Origin: Clostridia bacterium
GTDB taxonomy: Bacteria > Bacillota_A > Clostridia > Oscillospirales > UBA929
Reading direction: 5' to 3'
Length of the DNA: 10,323 nucleotides
Assembly: GCA_026001245.1 (NCBI GenBank)
Contig: BNZR01000049.1
Coordinates: forward strand, 1-10,323
The notes under the pieces were generated by a model. The model had not been told where the DNA came from. It searched no databases and saw nothing but the letters and a program-made list of their open reading frames with translations. Below are positions 616 to 8,713 of this stretch, piece by piece. Each line of letters opens with the position of its first letter. The stretch's first letter is position 1. The translations under genes and the position numbers were made by a program.

Positions 616-1431
616 ATGCGAATTATAGATTCATCAACCATTACAGACTTTGCGCACCACTTGAAACTCGCAGAAAAATCTGAGGCAACCGTTATCAAAT
701 ACACAAGGGATATACGCAAATTTTCCGAGTATCTTAAGGCCGCGCCGCTGACTAAAGAATCAATTGTCGACTACAAAACGAAACTACGTGCCGATGGGCG
801 AAACGCGACTGGAGTAAACGCTGTCATCGCCGCCATTAATAGCTTCCTAGCTTTTGTCGGATTATCAGACTTCAAAGTCAAGCCTTACAAAATCCAGCAA
901 CGCCAATTTCGAGATTCCAACCGAGAATTGACGCGCGATGAGTACAATCGACTGCTTATTACAGCCCTCAATAGCGGCAATCGTCAGCTTTGGCTGATTA
1001 TGCAGACTATCTGCTCAACGGGTATTCGCGTCAGCGAGTTGCAGTTCGTGACAGTTGAAGCGGTGCGTTTGGGACAAATTACTGTGACGAACAAGGGTAA
1101 GACGCGTGTAGTGCCGCTTACCGAGAAGCTGTGCGCGAAGCTCGCCACATATATAAAGAAGTCGAAAATCACAGGCGAAATCTTTCCCGTCAGGCGCAAC
1201 CAGGTCTGGCGCGAAATGAAAAAGCTCTGCGCCAGAGCGGGCGTAGAGTCCAAGAAAGTCTTTCCGCATAACTTGCGGCACTTGTTTGGAGTGACGTTCT
1301 ATCATCGCGAACACGATATCATGAAACTAGCGGCGATACTTGGGCATTCGGACGTGAATACAACGCGGATTTATACGTTGGAGAGCGATAAAATGTATCG
1401 TGTGGGGTTAGATTTGGGATTGGTTGCGTGA
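616..1431 (+). CDS. Tyrosine recombinase, probable DNA invertase of adjacent switch
   Basis: The 271-residue protein has an N-terminal SAM-like core-binding domain (about 7-85) and a C-terminal catalytic domain (about 104-271). The catalytic set appears complete: R138 in STGIRVSEL, K160/K162 in TNKGKTR, H218 and R221 in PHNLRHLFG, H244 in LGHSDVNTTR and nucleophile Y253 in RIYT. Its length matches compact XerC/D-like recombinases rather than phage integrases with an arm-binding domain. ATG 616 was chosen because GAGGG lies 7 bases upstream and the core-binding domain begins just after it; the longer open frame to 487 adds only unconvincing sequence. The stop lies 5 bp before a pair of 24-bp inverted repeats that enclose a promoter. 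This fits the known arrangement of phase-variation recombinases placed beside the segment they invert. Acting on these repeats is an inference. Confidence 0.9.
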   Translation: MRIIDSSTITDFAHHLKLAEKSEATVIKYTRDIRKFSEYLKAAPLTKESIVDYKTKLRADGRNATGVNAVIAAINSFLAFVGLSDFKVKPYKIQQRQFRDSNRELTRDEYNRLLITALNSGNRQLWLIMQTICSTGIRVSELQFVTVEAVRLGQITVTNKGKTRVVPLTEKLCAKLATYIKKSKITGEIFPVRRNQVWREMKKLCARAGVESKKVFPHNLRHLFGVTFYHREHDIMKLAAILGHSDVNTTRIYTLESDKMYRVGLDLGLVA

Positions 1432-1436
1432 GGTGC

Positions 1437-1460
1437 GGAATTCTCATTCCCTACCGCGAC
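1437..1460 (+). repeat. Left inverted repeat of putative invertible segment
   Basis: This 24-bp arm begins GGAATTCTCATTC and ends CTACCGCGAC. It is the reverse complement of 1646-1669 with a single mismatch (23 of 24 positions agree). It lies 5 bp after the recombinase stop codon. Paired long repeats of this kind flanking a promoter are typical crossover sites for tyrosine or serine DNA invertases. Confidence 0.85.
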
Positions 1461-1474
1461 ACCCTCGAACCTTA

Positions 1475-1496
1475 GGGGAATATAGGGATATTCCTC
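1475..1496. other. Small hairpin in the segment leader
   Basis: GGAATAT at 1477-1483 pairs with ATATTCC at 1488-1494 around a 4-base loop, extendable by a G:U and a G:C pair to 1475-1496. It lies immediately after the expected start point (about 1500, minus strand) of the promoter inside the segment. Every transcript from that promoter would therefore carry a 5' stem-loop, in either orientation of the segment. A mRNA-stabilising role or a recombinase accessory site are both possible; neither is shown. Confidence 0.4.
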
Positions 1497-1506
1497 AACT
1501 TTTGTT

Positions 1507-1536
1507 ATTATAACATATCTGAATGGTAGCTGTCAA
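1507..1536 (-). promoter_or_regulatory. Consensus extended sigma-A promoter inside invertible segment
   Basis: On the minus strand, TTGACA (1536-1531) is separated by 18 bases from TATAAT (1512-1507), with the extended -10 TG one base before it. All 12 hexamer positions match consensus. The expected start is near 1500, reading leftward through the left repeat into the 3' end of the recombinase gene as antisense. If the segment flips about 1437-1669, the -35 would map to 1570-1575 and the -10 to 1594-1599 on the plus strand. That would give a leader of roughly 95-100 bases to the ATG at 1703 of the surface protein. Confidence 0.85.
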
Positions 1537-1557
1537 GCCACATTTGCAAGAAAAATA

Positions 1558-1597
1558 AGCCGGACGATGATTTGCATCTCGAACCGGCTATTTTCAG
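1558..1597. terminator. Bidirectional rho-independent-type terminator inside segment
   Basis: AGCCGG (1558-1563) pairs with CCGGCT (1584-1589), with a small inner GATG/CATC helix in the loop. The plus-strand side is followed by ATTTTC. On the minus strand the stem is followed by a better U-rich tract, TATTTTTCTT. It lies behind the segment's promoter in either orientation. As given, it would stop recombinase read-through from reaching the surface gene; after inversion it would insulate the promoter from upstream transcription. Confidence 0.65.
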
Positions 1598-1645
1598 TTC
1601 CCGCAAACAAAACATGCCTGCCGTTCAAGGCTGGCAACGACTCCA

Positions 1646-1669
1646 GTCGCGGTAGAGAATGAGAATTCC
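1646..1669 (-). repeat. Right inverted repeat of putative invertible segment
   Basis: This is the partner of 1437-1460, with one mismatch in 24. It begins GTCGCGGTAG and ends GAGAATTCC. The distance between arms is 185 bp (1461-1645). The arm lies 34 bp upstream of the apparent ATG (1703) of the surface protein, so an inverted promoter would read through it into the gene. Confidence 0.85.
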
Positions 1670-3569
1670 CTTGCAACAAAATAAAAATTGGAGGTTTGTA
1701 CTATGCGGAAAAAAATTATTGCAGAAATCCCTTGCCTTGCTGATGGCGATAGCCATGCTACTGATGTTGTTACCCACGAATGGAGGAGAATCGGTTGCGT
1801 TTGCGGCTGATGACGCTTCCGCACAAACTGATGTGGATAGCGGCATACATTATTTTTCCGAGGATGTAATCGTGGAGGGGCGAGACAACAGCGGGGCTGT
1901 AGTTGCGATAATAAACCTGTCCCGCGATACTATAACGCTTCCGTCGGAAGCGTATAGCGCCGTGGCGTTCAGCACGGATGCCGGAAATAAGTGGAGCGAT
2001 GTAAAGGCAACCACTTTCGAAAATTTCCCCAAAATGCTGACCACCGATTTCGAGCTATGGCTAACTGATAAATACGAAAAAGAAACAAGAAATCCTCCTA
2101 GTGATGCAAATATCGTCAAATTTGCTAAAATAAATGCTCGTCCGAAAGCCCCAAGTCTTATCGCAAACTATACGGTAGGTTCTACGTTGGCAGATAAGCG
2201 CTGGGCTTTAACTGAAAAAGAGGGTACACAAGCGGTTGTGGCCGGTATAGGCATTGCACCGGCGGATTCCACAGGCAAGACGATTGGCTCTGAGGGATAT
2301 GGCACATATTACGATGGAATATTTTTGAATAGATCATCTAGCAACAAAACGAAGGTTCAGAAGTATTTTATCAGAAACGAACCATATTTTGATGGTACTG
2401 CGTATACTGCTGCAAGCATCCCCAAGGCAATTTCAGTTAAAGGTGAACAAAAAGCCCCTAAAAAGAAAGCCAATTATAAGACGGAAACAATCAAGCTGAA
2501 TAAAGGCGATGTAATTTTCGCGGGTACGCTAGAGGAACTGGCCGAGATCGACTATTGGGATGTCCGAGAAATCTCTGAAAATACGGCGATCTTGGAGGCT
2601 GGGCAACTATTGTATGTAGCTTCCGCGAAGCGTACAGAAGTTTCGATTTCCGGTTATCTGTCCGAAGAAGCTCAAACAGTTGTGATTTGGGGTTCCGGCA
2701 CTGATAAAAAACCTCCGACTGCAAAACAGGTATATACTCTTGCGCCGAGAACTACTCTTGAAACGCTTAATCTAAGCGGGAAAAGCGGCAAGCTATCACT
2801 TGATTCCAGATTTCAAATATTAAACAAGCAAACCAACAAATGGGGTAAGTTGCCGAAAATTACGGCAAACCAAACCTTTGATATACGTTCAAAATCAACC
2901 GCAAAAGCGACCGGAGCGGTTGACAAGGGATTTGCCGCGAGTAAATCCGGCGACCTCAACATATCTTGGGGCGTATTTGATGAGCGTAAAAATAAAAGCG
3001 GCATTTTACAGGCTATCATACGTCCAAGAGGCGAGGGACAGAATTATTCCATTACCGGAGTTACAGTAAACAGGAGTGAAAACATAATATCCGCCGAGGT
3101 ATCGACAGGCGTTGCCGATTACGTTGATATAACAGTTTTGGAAGACGTTGTCGGGGAAAGCGACGATTGGGATACGGCAAAGGAATTAGCGGTCGGCAAC
3201 GCAAGTGTTGGCAAAGCGACTGAAGCAACCTTCATAGATGTTCCGATGTCCGACACATTGCCTACGTATTTTATCATAGTCGTTCGGCTTAGGAGTACAA
3301 ACGGAGCGGAGCTATGCTCTCCGTTTACGTCTATTGAGTACACGAGCGCACACGAGGAGTTTTTGACGAAGACAGTTGACGATTTTGCCGATCATCCCGG
3401 CGAGGTTATAAGGCTTGACGATGTAGCCGAAAACAATAATTTCATGGTTACAGCAGAGGGCGTACCTTTTATTGACGCGGATCCCGATGATGTAGACGTG
3501 TCCGAAGACGGGAACACATATGTGTTCAACCGCCGCTTCGGCGGACGGCAACTACAGGGCAACCTGTGA
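1659..3569 (+). CDS. Large secreted surface protein, start out of frame and C-terminus broken
   Basis: The open frame of 636 codons encodes an exported protein. Residues KKLLQKS, a hydrophobic core (LALLMAIAMLLMLL) and an AFA-A cleavage site near residue 49 form a signal peptide. The mature part has features of clostridial repeat-rich surface proteins: a segment near 80-130 with STDAGNKW and FPKMLTTDFELWLTDKYEK, then Thr/Lys-rich beta-type sequence; no enzyme motif is seen. The frame's only standard upstream starts lie inside the right repeat (ATG 1659) or lack a binding site. The convincing start is ATG 1703, 8 bases after TTGGAGG, giving MRKK, but an A7 run puts it one base out of frame with the signal peptide; with six As it would read MRKKLLQKSLALL. 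The ATG frame as written stops at 1810 after 35 codons. The 3' end leaves the frame near 3543, where a Big2 domain continues in another frame. Expression probably depends on the invertible promoter upstream. Confidence 0.75.
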   Translation: MRIPLQQNKNWRFVLCGKKLLQKSLALLMAIAMLLMLLPTNGGESVAFAADDASAQTDVDSGIHYFSEDVIVEGRDNSGAVVAIINLSRDTITLPSEAYSAVAFSTDAGNKWSDVKATTFENFPKMLTTDFELWLTDKYEKETRNPPSDANIVKFAKINARPKAPSLIANYTVGSTLADKRWALTEKEGTQAVVAGIGIAPADSTGKTIGSEGYGTYYDGIFLNRSSSNKTKVQKYFIRNEPYFDGTAYTAASIPKAISVKGEQKAPKKKANYKTETIKLNKGDVIFAGTLEELAEIDYWDVREISENTAILEAGQLLYVASAKRTEVSISGYLSEEAQTVVIWGSGTDKKPPTAKQVYTLAPRTTLETLNLSGKSGKLSLDSRFQILNKQTNKWGKLPKITANQTFDIRSKSTAKATGAVDKGFAASKSGDLNISWGVFDERKNKSGILQAIIRPRGEGQNYSITGVTVNRSENIISAEVSTGVADYVDITVLEDVVGESDDWDTAKELAVGNASVGKATEATFIDVPMSDTLPTYFIIVVRLRSTNGAELCSPFTSIEYTSAHEEFLTKTVDDFADHPGEVIRLDDVAENNNFMVTAEGVPFIDADPDDVDVSEDGNTYVFNRRFGGRQLQGNL

Positions 3570-3841
3570 CGTGACCATAACGGACTTCCCCGTCCCGGCG
3601 AACGGTATAACATTAAGCGATACTGCCGTTAGCATAATAAGGCAGGACAGCGGTACAATCACGGCGGAGGTGCTGTCAGCCAATAACAATTCTCCCCCCG
3701 CCACTAATCAAAAGTAGCATGGAGTAGCAGTGACGAAAGCGTTGCTACTGTTGCGGGAGGAAAAATATCCGCATGGGCGGTAGGAACCGCGACTATAACA
3801 GCCACTACGGTGGACGGAGGCTACGCGGCAACCTGCACGGT
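3543..3841 (+). pseudogene. Frameshifted Big2 (bacterial Ig-like) domain remnant
   Basis: In a frame different from the preceding ORF, the sequence reads ASADGNYRATCDVTIT, the end of one Ig-like repeat. It continues with ANGITLSDTAVSII to NQ near 3710. There the frame breaks again and resumes one base off as VAWSSSDESVATVAGG, ISAWAVGTATITATTVDGGY and ATCTV. Together these form one nearly complete Big2 domain, a fold common in surface adhesins. The break falls in CAAAAG at 3711-3716; one additional A would restore KVAWSSSD in frame. The domain was probably the C-terminal part of the surface protein above. It ends abruptly near 3841, where sequence of a different origin begins on the opposite strand. 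Confidence 0.7.
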
Positions 3842-3844
3842 GTA

Positions 3845-4150
3845 TCAAGCTGTGGATGGGAACCACTCGGTCTCTCCCAGCTTTCGTTTTCAAGCCGCCT
3901 TTTATCCAATTTTCCTCAAGGTTCACGTTGGCCGTCTCAATACTCAAAAGTTCGTTGATGCGGAACCCGCTGTATAGTAGTACAAGGACGGTATCGGCGT
4001 AAGGCTCGTCTCGGTACGCCCAGACCGTTTCGATTTCTTCCGCAGTAAAGGGTTCTTTAGAGGTCGGGGGTATCGGAGCGGCATGAATGAGTTCGGAGTT
4101 TTTCTTCGCAATAACGTCAGGCTCCATTGCATAGAGGTCGAGCTTCCCGA
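3845..4150 (-). pseudogene. Fragment of a second tyrosine recombinase (phage integrase type)
   Basis: The minus strand encodes about 100 residues: LYAMEPDVIAKKN, then EPFTAEEIETVW, VLLYSGFRINELLSIE, and GGLKTKAGRDRVVPIHS. These match the end of the core-binding domain, the catalytic Arg (YSGFRINELL) and the beta-hairpin with the catalytic Lys in phage/ICE integrases. The HxxR, second His and Tyr nucleophile are absent, so it is inactive. At the right edge (about 4150) it meets serine-recombinase sequence on the opposite strand. At the left edge (about 3842-3848) it meets the Big2 remnant. It differs from the intact recombinase at 616. Confidence 0.75.
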
Positions 4151-4555
4151 ACAAAAGCGATTTACTACAGATTTCTTAACGAAAAAGACGAAGCGTAACG
4201 AGGGCGAATATCCGCAGTATTATGTAGAAAACTCACATCCCGCAATCATATCTTTGGAAACTTACGACCTCGTGCAAGACGAAATGCGCCGAAACAGCGC
4301 GGTTGGGTGTACTCGAAGCGCGGCGCATTGTTTCTCAACAAAAGTTTTCTGCGGCGAATGCGGCGGCGTATTCGGCTCCAAGACATGGCACAGCACAGAC
4401 AAGTACAAACGCACAATCTGGCGTTGCAATCGGAAATACGAATTCAAGGCAGTGTTGCCTGCAAAACACCGCACCTTGATGACAAAAGTCTGCGGCGGGT
4501 TTTTGTGACGGCGTTTAATCAGATTCTCGCCGACAAAAGCCTGTGGTTGGACAAT
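4150..4555 (+). pseudogene. Fragment of a large serine recombinase, frameshifted
   Basis: The plus strand reads KRFTTDFLTKKTKRNEGEYP then QYYVENSHPAIISLETYDLV, the recombinase domain that follows the resolvase catalytic domain in large serine recombinases (TnpX/CcrB-like). Next comes a zinc ribbon, FCGECGGVFGSKT with WRCNRKY. Near 4445 the frame shifts, and the ribbon's next Cys appears as ACKTPHLDDKSLRRVF, with VTAFNQILADK after it. The catalytic N-terminal domain with the Ser nucleophile is missing, as is the coiled-coil C-terminus. It is therefore a remnant of an integrative element, truncated on both sides and internally frameshifted. It continues without a stop into an unrelated RCC1-repeat sequence. 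Confidence 0.8.
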
Positions 4556-5371
4556 TTCAGCCGAAGCGTAACTGTTCAAAACGTGAAGCAAGTTGAGTAT
4601 GGAGACATCGAAGTCGGCGTAATATTCTATATCGACGAAAGCAACAATCTCTATGGCTTGGGAGCTTTGGCACAAGGTGGAACAGTAAAAGTTACCTATG
4701 ATACTCCGACATTACTGCTTGAAAACGCGAAATATGTCCGCATGGGAGAAGGTCAAGTCTTGGCGTTGCAGAATGACGGCACTCTTTGGGGTTGGGGCGA
4801 TAATCGTGTAGGACAGCTTGCGCACGAAGAAGAGTACATTGAAACTCCCGTCAAAATCATGGAGGGGGTAAGGTTTATTTCGGCGGGACAGTACGTTTCT
4901 GCCGCTTTGAAAGAGGATGGCAGTTTGTGGGTTTGGGGTTCTAACGCGATAGGTGCGATTGGCAACGGCGAGCGCGGGAATGGGCAGTATCCACAACTTC
5001 CGGGTAAGAGCGTGCTGGAACCTTACAATACGCTGAATAATGTCGTGTTTATGTCCGTTGGCGGGATTAACAGCTACGCCATAACCTCGGACTACGCTCT
5101 GTGGGCGTGGGGCGGCGACTATGGCAACCTTCCGACTAAGATTGCGGATAATATTCAATTTGTCTGCAACTATGGTAGTGTTGGGTACGCTGTGGACTTG
5201 CAAGGGAATTTGTTTATGACCTCGGATTTGGATATGCCGTTTAAGAAAAATGTGCGTTCATGTTTTTTGTGCGTGTCTAACTTGCTGCTTATAGAGTATT
5301 CGGACGGCAGTCTGTGGAATTATAATGCGGATAGCGGCGAGGATGTGGAGGTGCTGGCGGCGGTCAGGTAA
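4556..5371 (+). pseudogene. RCC1-repeat domain, C-terminal part of a surface protein
   Basis: About 270 residues remain, in the same open frame as the second half of the serine recombinase remnant (frame open 4307-5371). RCC1-type blades are evident: VLALQNDGTLWGWGDNRVGQ, then VSAALKEDGSLWVWGSN, YAITSDYALWAWGGD and a weaker YAVDLQGNL. Each has the pattern of a hydrophobic strand, a DG turn, LWxWG and a spacer. In Clostridia such beta-propellers are found in secreted proteins, often beside Ig-like domains. Its own N-terminus and signal peptide are not here. The gene was probably the C-terminal portion of a larger exported protein, possibly the same one as the Big2 remnant, separated by recombinase debris. 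If translated from a start in the fragment upstream it would be cytoplasmic. Confidence 0.7.
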
Positions 5372-6183: not shown

Positions 6184-6894
6184 TCACGGCTTTGGGGGAG
6201 GATTACTGCCGGCTTTCAATGGTTCCATCGTCTGCGCGAACAGCGCGGTCAACTTTGCCATGCCCTCTGACGGCGGTTGCTGAACGGCGCGAACGTGGAC
6301 TTTGTATGTTGCGGTGGTGTCCGACGTGCGTTTATGCTCGCTGTCCGACGACACGTTTCCCGTAATGCTGGCATCCAAACCGAACCATGAGTTGTACTTT
6401 ACAACCGTTCCCGCGTCCGAGTGCGACTTGTCGTCCTGCAAGCTGGAGTTTTTAACTTCCATATCAAAGTCCACAGTCAGTTCGTCCATTGTGAACGCGG
6501 ACACCGGAACGAGCGACAACAGCGGGGCTTTCAGCGTGTAACTTTGAGAGGTTATTTGGCTGTTTCCGGTTTGATCAACTGTCGTTACAGGGCGGTCGTA
6601 AGTGAAATCCAGAGTGTTGACCGCTCCTGCTTTTCCGTCCGCGTAGGCAAGCTTCATAATCCCGTCGATATAAGTGGCCGTAAGCTGCTGCTGACCGCGC
6701 GCCGCCGCGATAACCGGCGCGACAATCAGCGACTCAATGGGAAGCGCTGCGAAATCTGACGCGATATTCGCCGCCGAATCGTCGCTGCCCGTCACAGTAG
6801 AGCTAGGGGACTTATTCCCTTCGAGAGCGGTTGTGATTGCACTGACAAGGGTCTGATCGAGTTCCGCATTTTGGTGGTTGTGTTCGTCCGACAT
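6184..6894 (-). CDS. DUF2589-like protein, long paralogue
   Basis: The product has 236 residues, no signal peptide and no membrane segment. After a variable N-terminus (1-48), the region FAALPIESLIVAPVIAAARG then QQQLTATYIDGIMKL (about 49-88), followed by beta strands with APLLSLVPVSAFTMDELTVD (about 123-142), matches the layout I associate with DUF2589 (PF11655): a helical PIxxLIxxP segment, then a beta sandwich of VPLL-xLVP and D-E-x-V strands. Function is unknown. The end contains PPSEGMAKLTALF, shared with the end of the gene upstream. AGGAGG lies 8 bases before ATG 6894 and overlaps the stop codon of the preceding gene, indicating tight translational linkage. The C-terminal PPPKP tail is low complexity. 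Confidence 0.7.
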   Translation of the reverse strand: MSDEHNHQNAELDQTLVSAITTALEGNKSPSSTVTGSDDSAANIASDFAALPIESLIVAPVIAAARGQQQLTATYIDGIMKLAYADGKAGAVNTLDFTYDRPVTTVDQTGNSQITSQSYTLKAPLLSLVPVSAFTMDELTVDFDMEVKNSSLQDDKSHSDAGTVVKYNSWFGLDASITGNVSSDSEHKRTSDTTATYKVHVRAVQQPPSEGMAKLTALFAQTMEPLKAGSNPPPKP

Positions 6895-6906
6895 GATTGA
6901 TTCCTC

Positions 6907-7335
6907 CTATATATTTTTGATGTGCTTGTCGCCTAATTTAGCCATGCCCTCCGGAGAGGGCGAGTTCTTGAAACGCAAAGTCAACTCGCTGACCGTGCTT
7001 TTAGTAAGAAATGACGTGACATTCACGGCTAAGTTACCGCCTTTGTCGGTGCCCGCAACTCTGAATTTCAGGCGCACTTCCACTTCGTCCAGCAACAGCG
7101 ATGTGTTGTGGACAAGCGCGGTAACGGGAACATTTATTTTTTTAGAACCGTCCGACGAACCGTCATTTGACGGAAGAGTTAGACTGTACATGATCGGAGT
7201 AAATTCATGTTCGTCGGTGCCGGGGGCGTAACCACGGGCGAGATAGAGATCCGCCGCCGCTTTTTCTATGATACTTCCGGCGTTTTGAACGCTCAGTCCT
7301 ATTTTATTGATTAGAGTAGAAAGCAATACACTCAT
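6907..7335 (-). CDS. DUF2589-like protein, short paralogue
   Basis: The 142-residue protein starts at ATG 7335, 7 bases after AGGGAGGG. The open frame continues to 7383, but that extension overlaps the promoter. The N-terminus (LLSTLINKIGLSV then IIEKAAADLY) is helical. Strand-rich sequence follows: FTPIMYSLTLPSNDG, VPVTALVHNTSLLLDEVEVR and ELTLRFKN. The VP-x-ALV-x7-DE-x-EV arrangement lines up with APLLSLVPVSAFTMDELTV in the next gene, and SPSPEGMAKLGD lines up with PPSEGMAKLTA. The two genes therefore look like diverged paralogues that may form a hetero-oligomer. It lacks the PIESLI helix of the longer one. It is first in the operon, 12 bases before its neighbour's start, with a strong promoter at 7382-7410. 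Confidence 0.6.
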   Translation of the reverse strand: MSVLLSTLINKIGLSVQNAGSIIEKAAADLYLARGYAPGTDEHEFTPIMYSLTLPSNDGSSDGSKKINVPVTALVHNTSLLLDEVEVRLKFRVAGTDKGGNLAVNVTSFLTKSTVSELTLRFKNSPSPEGMAKLGDKHIKNI

Positions 7336-7362
7336 GCGCACACCCTCCCTTGTATGACTAGG

Positions 7363-7396
7363 AACATCTGCTATGATTCTCATTATAACAGATGTT
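7363..7396. promoter_or_regulatory. Inverted repeat straddling the -10, candidate operator
   Basis: AACATCTG (7363-7370) and CAGATGTT (7389-7396) are perfect 8-bp inverted copies separated by 18 bp. They flank the -10 hexamer and the expected start site. Centre-to-centre spacing of 26 bp is about two and a half helical turns. A dimeric repressor site is plausible, but no dedicated regulator is encoded next to it other than the sigma/anti-sigma pair. Confidence 0.4.
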
Positions 7397-7480: not shown

Positions 7481-8089
7481 TCACGTCACTACCGACGCTG
7501 CCATTTTTAGTAGTTCGTCTACGTCTATTGTACCGTCAAGTTCAAATCTCACTCCACCGCTATCCCAAACAATGGTGTTGCCCTTGCCGCTGGAAACGGC
7601 GGCGAAAACGTTGTATGTAACATCACCGCTTACTATGGTGCTGCACTCAACATCTTCGTTGTTTACGGACAATGAACCGTCAGAAGGCATAGTGGTTAAA
7701 TTGATTTCGTTCCCCGCCGCGTCAAGATACCTAACAACGGTCATGTCGCCGGCGGAGAGTATTTCATTCAGCGTGTACCCATTGGGCAGATATGTCGGGG
7801 TCAAATTCCCGTTCTCCGGCGCTTCGCTTGAGAACGGCAAGAATGTGGTGAACCTCTCAAACCATAGAATTGTCGCTTCAACGACCGCCGCTCGGACACT
7901 TGGAACCGTCATCAACGCACCGAACAGCACAGCAGCCACCAACACGATAACCGCCGCCGCTTGACGCGTCCACGTTAAAGCCTTGTGTATCCGCTCACGG
8001 CGTTCTTCTTGCGCGAACAACTTTTTCATCCGCTGATTGTGCCGTTCGGAAAACGTGTACTGCTTAGACAGCTCTTCCTCGCAGCGCAA
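7481..8089 (-). CDS. Membrane anti-sigma factor, DUF4367-like
   Basis: The 202-residue protein has a cytoplasmic N-terminal part with YTFSERHNQRMKKLFAQEER, a single membrane segment (about 43-61, AAAVIVLVAAVLFGALM) and an extracellular region ending in a beta-rich domain. In that domain LTPTYLPNGYTL, then strands with INLTTMPSDG and NTIVWDSGGVRFELDG, resemble DUF4367. Proteins of this build are commonly encoded after ECF sigma genes in Bacillota and hold the sigma factor at the membrane. The start is TTG 8089, overlapping the sigma gene by 26 bp, which suggests translational coupling. The later ATG that gives MKKLFAQ would remove part of the probable sigma-binding region. There is no zinc-binding HxxxCxxC motif, so it is not a ZAS-type anti-sigma. 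Confidence 0.8.
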   Translation of the reverse strand: MRCEEELSKQYTFSERHNQRMKKLFAQEERRERIHKALTWTRQAAAVIVLVAAVLFGALMTVPSVRAAVVEATILWFERFTTFLPFSSEAPENGNLTPTYLPNGYTLNEILSAGDMTVVRYLDAAGNEINLTTMPSDGSLSVNNEDVECSTIVSGDVTYNVFAAVSSGKGNTIVWDSGGVRFELDGTIDVDELLKMAASVVT

Positions 8090-8600
8090 CTTTTGCTCTG
8101 TAGACTATTGTTTCCGCATGTTTAGGGGTAATACCCATCTCCGCGACAATCTCATCGTAGGACATTCCTTGTATGTACTTCATGTTGAGCAGACGCTGTG
8201 CGGTCGCGCTAAGGTCGGATATGAGTTTTTGTAATTGTTCAAATTCTTCTTTTCGGATCATCCGAATATCTACCGGAACATCATTCGCCTCCAAACTGTA
8301 CTCCAACTCATCAAGCGGCGTAGTCGATATATTATTGTCGAGCTTGAGCAAGTCAAGGCATTTGTTCTTCACTATAATAACGATTGCGGAGCGAAAATCC
8401 CTACGTCCCAGCGATAAATATTTCTCCTTGTGCGTTATTACCGACAGAAACGCGCTGTGCAGAGCATCCTCGGCGCGAGATTGGTCGTGTAGTATCGCCA
8501 GCGCGGTTCTAAGGCAGGCATACTTGTTGCGCTCGTACAAATCGGCGAGTTTCATACGCTCGTCATCCGTTTCGAGCATAGACATATAGACGAACAGCAA
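8064..8600 (-). CDS. ECF-type RNA polymerase sigma factor
   Basis: The 178-residue protein has sigma region 2 (about 17-86: LADLYERNKYACLRTALAIL, DQSRAEDALHSAFLSV and then NKCLDLL) and region 4 (about 121-175: ISDLSATAQRLLNMKYIQG then SYDEIVAEMGITPKHAETIV). The DALHSAF motif takes the place of the usual DxxQEVF. The start is TTG 8600, 6 bases after GGGGGTG; upstream in-frame starts (ATG 8615, 8663) are too close to or inside the promoter. It is cotranscribed with the membrane anti-sigma downstream, which would hold it until an envelope or external signal. Targets cannot be told from the sequence. Its own promoter looks like a sigma-A promoter, not an ECF one, so autoregulation is not evident. 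Confidence 0.9.
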   Translation of the reverse strand: MLFVYMSMLETDDERMKLADLYERNKYACLRTALAILHDQSRAEDALHSAFLSVITHKEKYLSLGRRDFRSAIVIIVKNKCLDLLKLDNNISTTPLDELEYSLEANDVPVDIRMIRKEEFEQLQKLISDLSATAQRLLNMKYIQGMSYDEIVAEMGITPKHAETIVYRAKVALRGRAV

Positions 8601-8628
8601 GCGATTCACCCCCATTGAATTTTTCCTC

Positions 8629-8657
8629 ATTATAGCACAGCAAAAGATATTTATCAA
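8629..8657 (-). promoter_or_regulatory. Promoter of the sigma/anti-sigma operon
   Basis: On the minus strand TTGATA (8657-8652), 17 bases, then TATAAT (8634-8629), with TG one base before the -10. The start would be near 8622, leaving a leader of about 22 bases to TTG 8600. This short leader supports the choice of the TTG start. Confidence 0.8.
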
Positions 8658-8713
8658 GGGCATGAAAAATTTTTTAAAAAACCATGTAGGGATTTTCGTT
8701 GCTCAATCGTTTA

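Follow-up and report, generated by a model that had tools for sequence, protein, structure and literature searches.

The window, by which we mean the whole stretch of 10,323 nucleotides analyzed here, opens with the end of a gene for a dihydroxy-acid/6-phosphogluconate dehydratase-type enzyme (bases 2-133), which suggests a chromosomal place for the locus. There follow a complete tyrosine recombinase gene, a segment bounded by inverted repeats, and a long open reading frame (Table 1). The recombinase matches PF00589 (Phage_integrase, E 4.6e-23) and PF02899 (SAM-like, E 4.1e-8), and its homologues at 73-88% identity are proteins named Clostridia bacterium (P0002-P0010), which makes a clostridial origin of the window very probable. 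The catalytic positions expected for this family are R138, K160, H218, R221, H244, and Y253; all are invariant in the window protein and its eight closest relatives except H244, which is substituted in one of these nine. Over almost its full length, the protein is Xer-like in sequence, resembling the XerA-like structure PDB 4a8e (E 9.6e-31 for the alignment) and XerD (PDB 1a0p). Unlike the Xer recombinases, it would presumably act on two inverted sites next to the gene that encodes it. Assignment as an XerA, XerC, or XerD equivalog was rejected, its scores of 139.2, 94.5, and 111.5 bits falling below the respective curated cut-offs of 220, 335.15, and 329.6.

Table 1. Coordinates of the recombinase gene, the inverted-repeat segment, and the start of the downstream gene, numbered from the first base of the window.
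Feature	Position	Strand	Description
Tyrosine recombinase gene	616-1431	+	271 aa, complete; probable inverting enzyme
Left 7-4-7 dyad site	1435-1452		GCGGAAT-TCTC-ATTCCCT; dyad 5/7; proposed recombinase core site
Left inverted-repeat arm	1437-1460		24 nt; from repeat search
Invertible segment	1437-1669		233 bp including arms; 185 bp enclosed
Hairpin with T-rich tail	1475-1496	+	Terminator-like for plus-strand transcripts; possible recombinase terminator
Sigma-70-type promoter	1507-1536	-	TTGACA-18-TATAAT, extended TG; 12/12; directed at recombinase
Hairpin behind promoter	1558-1589		Folds stably on both strands; may insulate
Right inverted-repeat arm	1646-1669		23/24 (96%) complementary to left arm
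Right 7-4-7 dyad site	1654-1671		AGGGAAT-TCTC-ATTCTCT on the reverse strand; dyad 6/7; proposed core site
Long frame	1659-3569	+	Surface-protein-like; probable switched gene, not in frame with ATG 1703
GGAGG and ATG	1690-1705	+	GGAGG 1690-1694, ATG 1703; opens a 35-codon frame only

A first-pass annotation made from the sequence alone had described a 24-bp inverted repeat, matching at 23 of 24 positions and enclosing 185 bp, that lies 5 bp past a complete tyrosine recombinase. Our repeat search recovers it as described, with five bases between the end of the recombinase stop codon at 1431 and the start of the left arm at 1437. The repeat scores 21, far beyond chance: when the window was shuffled 200 times with its dinucleotides preserved, no score exceeded 15. 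The window yielded no tandem repeats and no Rfam match at gathering scores.

The minus-strand promoter reported inside the segment is present and perfect (12/12), and a scan of the window found no other site of that score. Plus-strand promoter-like sites in 1437-1702 reach 8/12 at most in the assembled orientation, in line with the earlier statement that no other promoter could be found for the downstream gene. When the 233-bp segment is inverted in silico, the 12/12 site moves to the plus strand, with its -35 element at 1570 and its -10 element at 1594-1599, the latter precisely where the annotation had predicted it; the GGAGG-ATG then lies about 100 nt past the promoter, giving the order promoter, leader, ribosome-binding site, ATG. 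Judged by sequence, the promoter is thus inside the segment and faces the target gene in just one of the two orientations. The hairpin noted behind it is also there, with folding energies for 1550-1600 of -16.4 and -18.1 kcal/mol on the plus and minus strands, and together with the T-rich hairpin it fits an insulated cassette, in which both structures may act to shield transcription. As assembled, the promoter faces the recombinase and the target side carries no plus-strand site above 8/12. From this arrangement it follows that the downstream gene would be OFF, the state in which the annotation proposed it had been captured.

Less clear is the gene that would be switched. ATG 1703, which lies 33 bases past the right repeat arm, is separated from the frame with a signal-peptide-like start (seen by eye within 1659-3569) by a run of seven A residues at 1709-1715. 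The first ATG of that longer frame sits within the right repeat arm, and it is possible that the switched gene starts there, at 1659. The frame is lost twice more, at about 3.54 kb and about 3.70 kb, and inspection by eye places these breaks on or next to short homopolymers. Because of the short ATG frame, the A7 run, and these two later breaks, the switched gene is either broken or mis-sequenced in this contig. The claim that a signal-peptide gene begins 34 bp past the repeat therefore holds only across the frame break at the A7 run, since ATG 1703 itself is out of frame. The 1659-3569 frame has no Pfam or NCBIfam match, and the 3' piece of the gene gives a match to Big_2 (bacterial Ig-like) of 16.4 bits, below the cut-off of 22.8. 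Control of a surface protein, as first proposed, retains a secreted-looking frame and this sub-cut-off match in its favor, set against a frame broken in three places, and the case for it is weaker than that for the switch itself. The protein is nearly an orphan, with itself and one partial relative recovered among 7998 scored candidates. A 369-aa metagenome protein related to it (P0122) joins a resolvase N terminus to pieces of the 1659-3569 protein; the joint may be genuine, may have arisen by recombination, or may reflect misassembly.

We looked for the same arrangement behind related recombinases. The first set comprised 53 loci with recombinase homologues from a scan of one genome per species, 9 of which were too short; the second came from a 394-genome sample of one order, with matches in 110 genomes and 29 new loci drawn, 5 of them untestable; L070, positive in another scan but misframed in this one, does not enter the count. 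A locus was counted as positive if it had a repeat score of at least 14, 100-450 nt inside the repeat, and a left arm between -80 and +450 bp from the stop. By this rule, 37 of the 44 testable loci in the first set and 21 of the 24 in the second have an inverted repeat following the recombinase stop, a total of 58 of 68, compared with 6 of 391 other gene ends taken from the first set's loci under the same rule. The 10 negative relatives (7/44 and 3/24) include two that are non-Clostridia with 28-30% identity (L052 and L053), and one positive locus, L012, probably counts through another repeat, its dyad-type repeat lying 404 bp behind the stop. Recombinases at the 58 positive loci are Clostridia-type and 41-54% identical to the window's. 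By hand count, the left arm begins no more than 100 bp from the stop at 55 of the 58 loci, and at 34 it begins within 10 bp or overlaps the stop. Thirteen further loci (L054-L066), several of which duplicate earlier ones, stand outside this count, as do L096-L101, where a wider spacing limit gave a repeat in four of six. At three loci (L041 1823-2143, L048 6461-6787, and L100 4874-5175), three repeat copies lie near one recombinase, so that such switches might have more than two states.

Other searches added little. An alignment-based search returned one relative at 33% identity, lacking the repeat; in a class-wide sample, one of 391 genomes rose above the cut, and it was a genome found before; and in the family sample of G001, which held three genomes, the cut-off was too strict to inform. 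Blastn found no window-like DNA in phage and plasmid collections, and viral contigs held neither a relative by single protein nor an exact match of the arm pattern.

The repeats share an internal layout. Most relatives' sites read ACA[T/A/G]AAT-N4-ATTNTGT, and among the spacers tried, one of 4 nt gives the best mean dyad (6.18 of 7, followed by 5.88 at spacer 6) and comes out best for 31 of the 57 relatives. Scored with a matrix built from 51 of these 57 (6 were dropped), the left and right window sites rank 16 and 15 among 10306 window positions, two ranks that are not independent, the arms being copies of each other. The same matrix scores the window sites at about 0, compared with a median of 21 for the relatives' own, and the window's GGAAT-TCTC-ATTCC is a diverged version of their site. 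In L081, a relative outside the matrix, one half-site is GCGGAAT, the same sequence as the outer half of the left site in the window. Co-variation between recombinase and site across 47 relatives (10 of the 57 were left out) gave a Spearman coefficient of -0.129, within the range of 300 permutations (lowest -0.23).

Promoter-like sites also recur within the segments. Across 58 segments (57 distinct ones plus the window's), 31 contain a promoter-like site scoring 10/12 or better (shuffled mean 8.15, maximum 13) and 11 contain one of at least 11/12 (shuffled mean 0.575, maximum 2); the remaining 27 have none at 10/12 or better. In the 31 segments, the best such site points toward the recombinase in 18 and away from it in 13. 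Homologous segments could be aligned in 30 pairs, each judged by its first listed alignment, and in 8 of these the two segments are oppositely oriented relative to the recombinase. Four of the opposite pairs involve L025, and the rest are L004/L010, L008/L010, L016/L023, and L023/L026, where L004, L008, and L010 share one MAG, L016 and L023 share another, and L026 belongs to a different species. Because homologous segments occur in opposite orientations, inversion appears to have happened within this recombinase family. The window's own segment aligned to none of the other 57, and its locus turned up no inverted copy. Opposite orientation in homologous loci, which the first-pass annotation had named as a check, is therefore seen among the relatives and not for the window's segment, whose own inversion is probable.

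The genes next to these segments are diverse. We scanned the first downstream proteins of 32 of 37 loci against Pfam (E 1e-5), leaving out four that run off contigs (L002, L012, L017, and L023) and L011, which equals L007. GGDEF, BTAD, cohesin, NusG, and an integrase N-terminal domain each occur twice; single cases include polysaccharide enzymes, SpaA/Cna_B, and regulators; and many of the 32 proteins have no Pfam match. From gene tables that are incomplete, the next listed gene behind the recombinase encodes an S-layer-homology protein in Pusillibacter faecalis and a hypothetical protein in a Monoglobus record. In L016 and L026 (members assigned by eye), the first gene behind the repeat carries integrase N-terminal-type sequence, as if one switch governed a second recombinase.

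Switches of this general kind are familiar from both Clostridia and Escherichia coli. The fim recombinases of E. coli belong to the tyrosine class, as does RecV of Clostridioides difficile. PMC2784873 describes the cwpV switch of C. difficile, in which RecV inverts some 195 bp flanked by 21-bp repeats upstream of a gene for a surface protein; it resembles the window in segment size and, probably, in its surface-protein target. In that description, however, the cwpV promoter is not part of the segment and recV is not nearby, whereas in the window the promoter is inside and the recombinase 5 bp away. We accordingly did not class the window with the RecV/cwpV type, its promoter being internal and its recombinase adjacent. 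The fim switch, cited in the same paper as an invertible promoter with linked recombinases (PMC2784873), has two recombinases versus the one complete enzyme of the window. Of the same kind by description is inverton group 139, for which PMC11892184 reports 32 of 33 members from Clostridia, tyrosine recombinase invertase group 35 as the most significant link, and examples that shift orientation in culture. Like the window, this group pairs a short inverted-repeat segment with a nearby tyrosine recombinase; the likeness is one of description, and the window's site is diverged from those of the relatives found here. The earlier statement that such a layout is known in Clostridia thus has a printed precedent (PMC11892184), and in the account of PMC5903667, 14 of 15 signature-positive Firmicutes are Clostridia. 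A literature search of titles and abstract openings returned no description of this locus, which is no proof of absence. The kind of switch is already known, and the window locus adds a diverged member.

Because the repeat exceeds chance and recurs in relatives, and given the shared dyad layout, the opposite orientations, and the promoter counts, we read the locus as a self-contained recombinase-linked invertible-promoter switch that is OFF for the downstream gene, with a probability of about 0.83. An invertible promoter with its own tyrosine recombinase, the core of the original proposal, is well supported by the repeats in 58 of 68 relatives, their common layout, and the occurrence of both orientations among them. 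In this mechanism, the recombinase would bind the two arms, each through its 7-4-7 dyad, and invert the 233-bp segment. In the assembled state, the promoter would fire leftward into the end of the recombinase coding sequence, leaving the downstream gene shielded by the hairpins and with no promoter of its own that the scan finds; in the inverted state, a plus-strand promoter at 1570-1599 would drive the surface-protein-like gene, with a leader some 100 nt long. Four steps of this scheme are inferred: continued inversion of this copy, action of this recombinase on the two sites, insulation by the hairpins, and synthesis of a product from the gene.

The same features could instead be what is left of a former switch that is decaying, its target gene broken and its inversion perhaps over. 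The three frame breaks in the downstream gene would fit such a relic, as would the diverged sites and two recombinase fragments beyond the gene: a tyrosine-recombinase piece at 3708-4154 (minus strand, below the Pfam cut-off) and, at 4083-4508 on the plus strand, a C-terminal piece of a serine recombinase. Decay sits poorly, though, with an intact recombinase frame that retains its presumed catalytic residues, with arms that are 23/24 alike, and with a perfect promoter, and the breaks themselves coincide with or adjoin short homopolymers, a frequent setting for sequencing errors. We regard a relic as unlikely, if still worth keeping in mind. The break at 1709-1715 also admits a two-layer switch in which promoter inversion is combined with slippage in the A7 run behind the ATG, the run, in the region of the fifth to eighth codon, choosing between the 35-codon and signal-peptide frames. 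Seven A residues are short for a slippage switch, however, and the two further breaks in the gene point to error or decay, making this combination very improbable. Finally, the repeats might bound a small mobile element or serve as attachment sites, with no role in switching, a view to which the recombinase fragments some 2 kb away lend a little color. It is hard to credit at all when many Clostridia have the repeat in the same position relative to the recombinase although the genes that follow it are unrelated, the segment contains only a promoter and hairpins, and phage, plasmid, and viral sequences offered neither similar DNA nor the exact arm pattern.

If the locus is the switch we favor, it might even remember its state. 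In OFF, the promoter would run antisense to the recombinase gene and damp its expression, a brake that would be gone in ON, and asymmetry of the half-sites would lead to unequal rates in the two directions. The OFF orientation pairs two middling sites (5/7 and 6/7), whereas ON would form a perfect dyad, AGGGAAT-GAGA-ATTCCCT, and a poor one, GCGGAAT versus AGAGAAT (4/7 by hand count). A terminator-like site on the minus strand at 1238-1224, within the recombinase gene, could stop antisense transcription some 260 nt from its start, and because of it we slightly lowered our estimate for this speculative reading, which we now consider unlikely. Given how many left arms abut or overlap the stop in relatives (34/58), such antisense feedback could be common among them, and the compact convergent layout makes the idea testable. 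Clostridia switches of one recombinase and one segment should likewise be easy to recognize, from a repeat just past the recombinase stop and a 7-4-7 site.

The rest of the window offers several observations of its own. A frame with RCC1-type repeats (4307-5371, plus strand) overlaps the serine-recombinase fragment, and two adjacent DUF2589 proteins are encoded at 6184-7383 on the minus strand. Also on the minus strand, an ECF-type sigma factor lies beside a DUF4367-domain protein (7481-8663), which is perhaps its partner.
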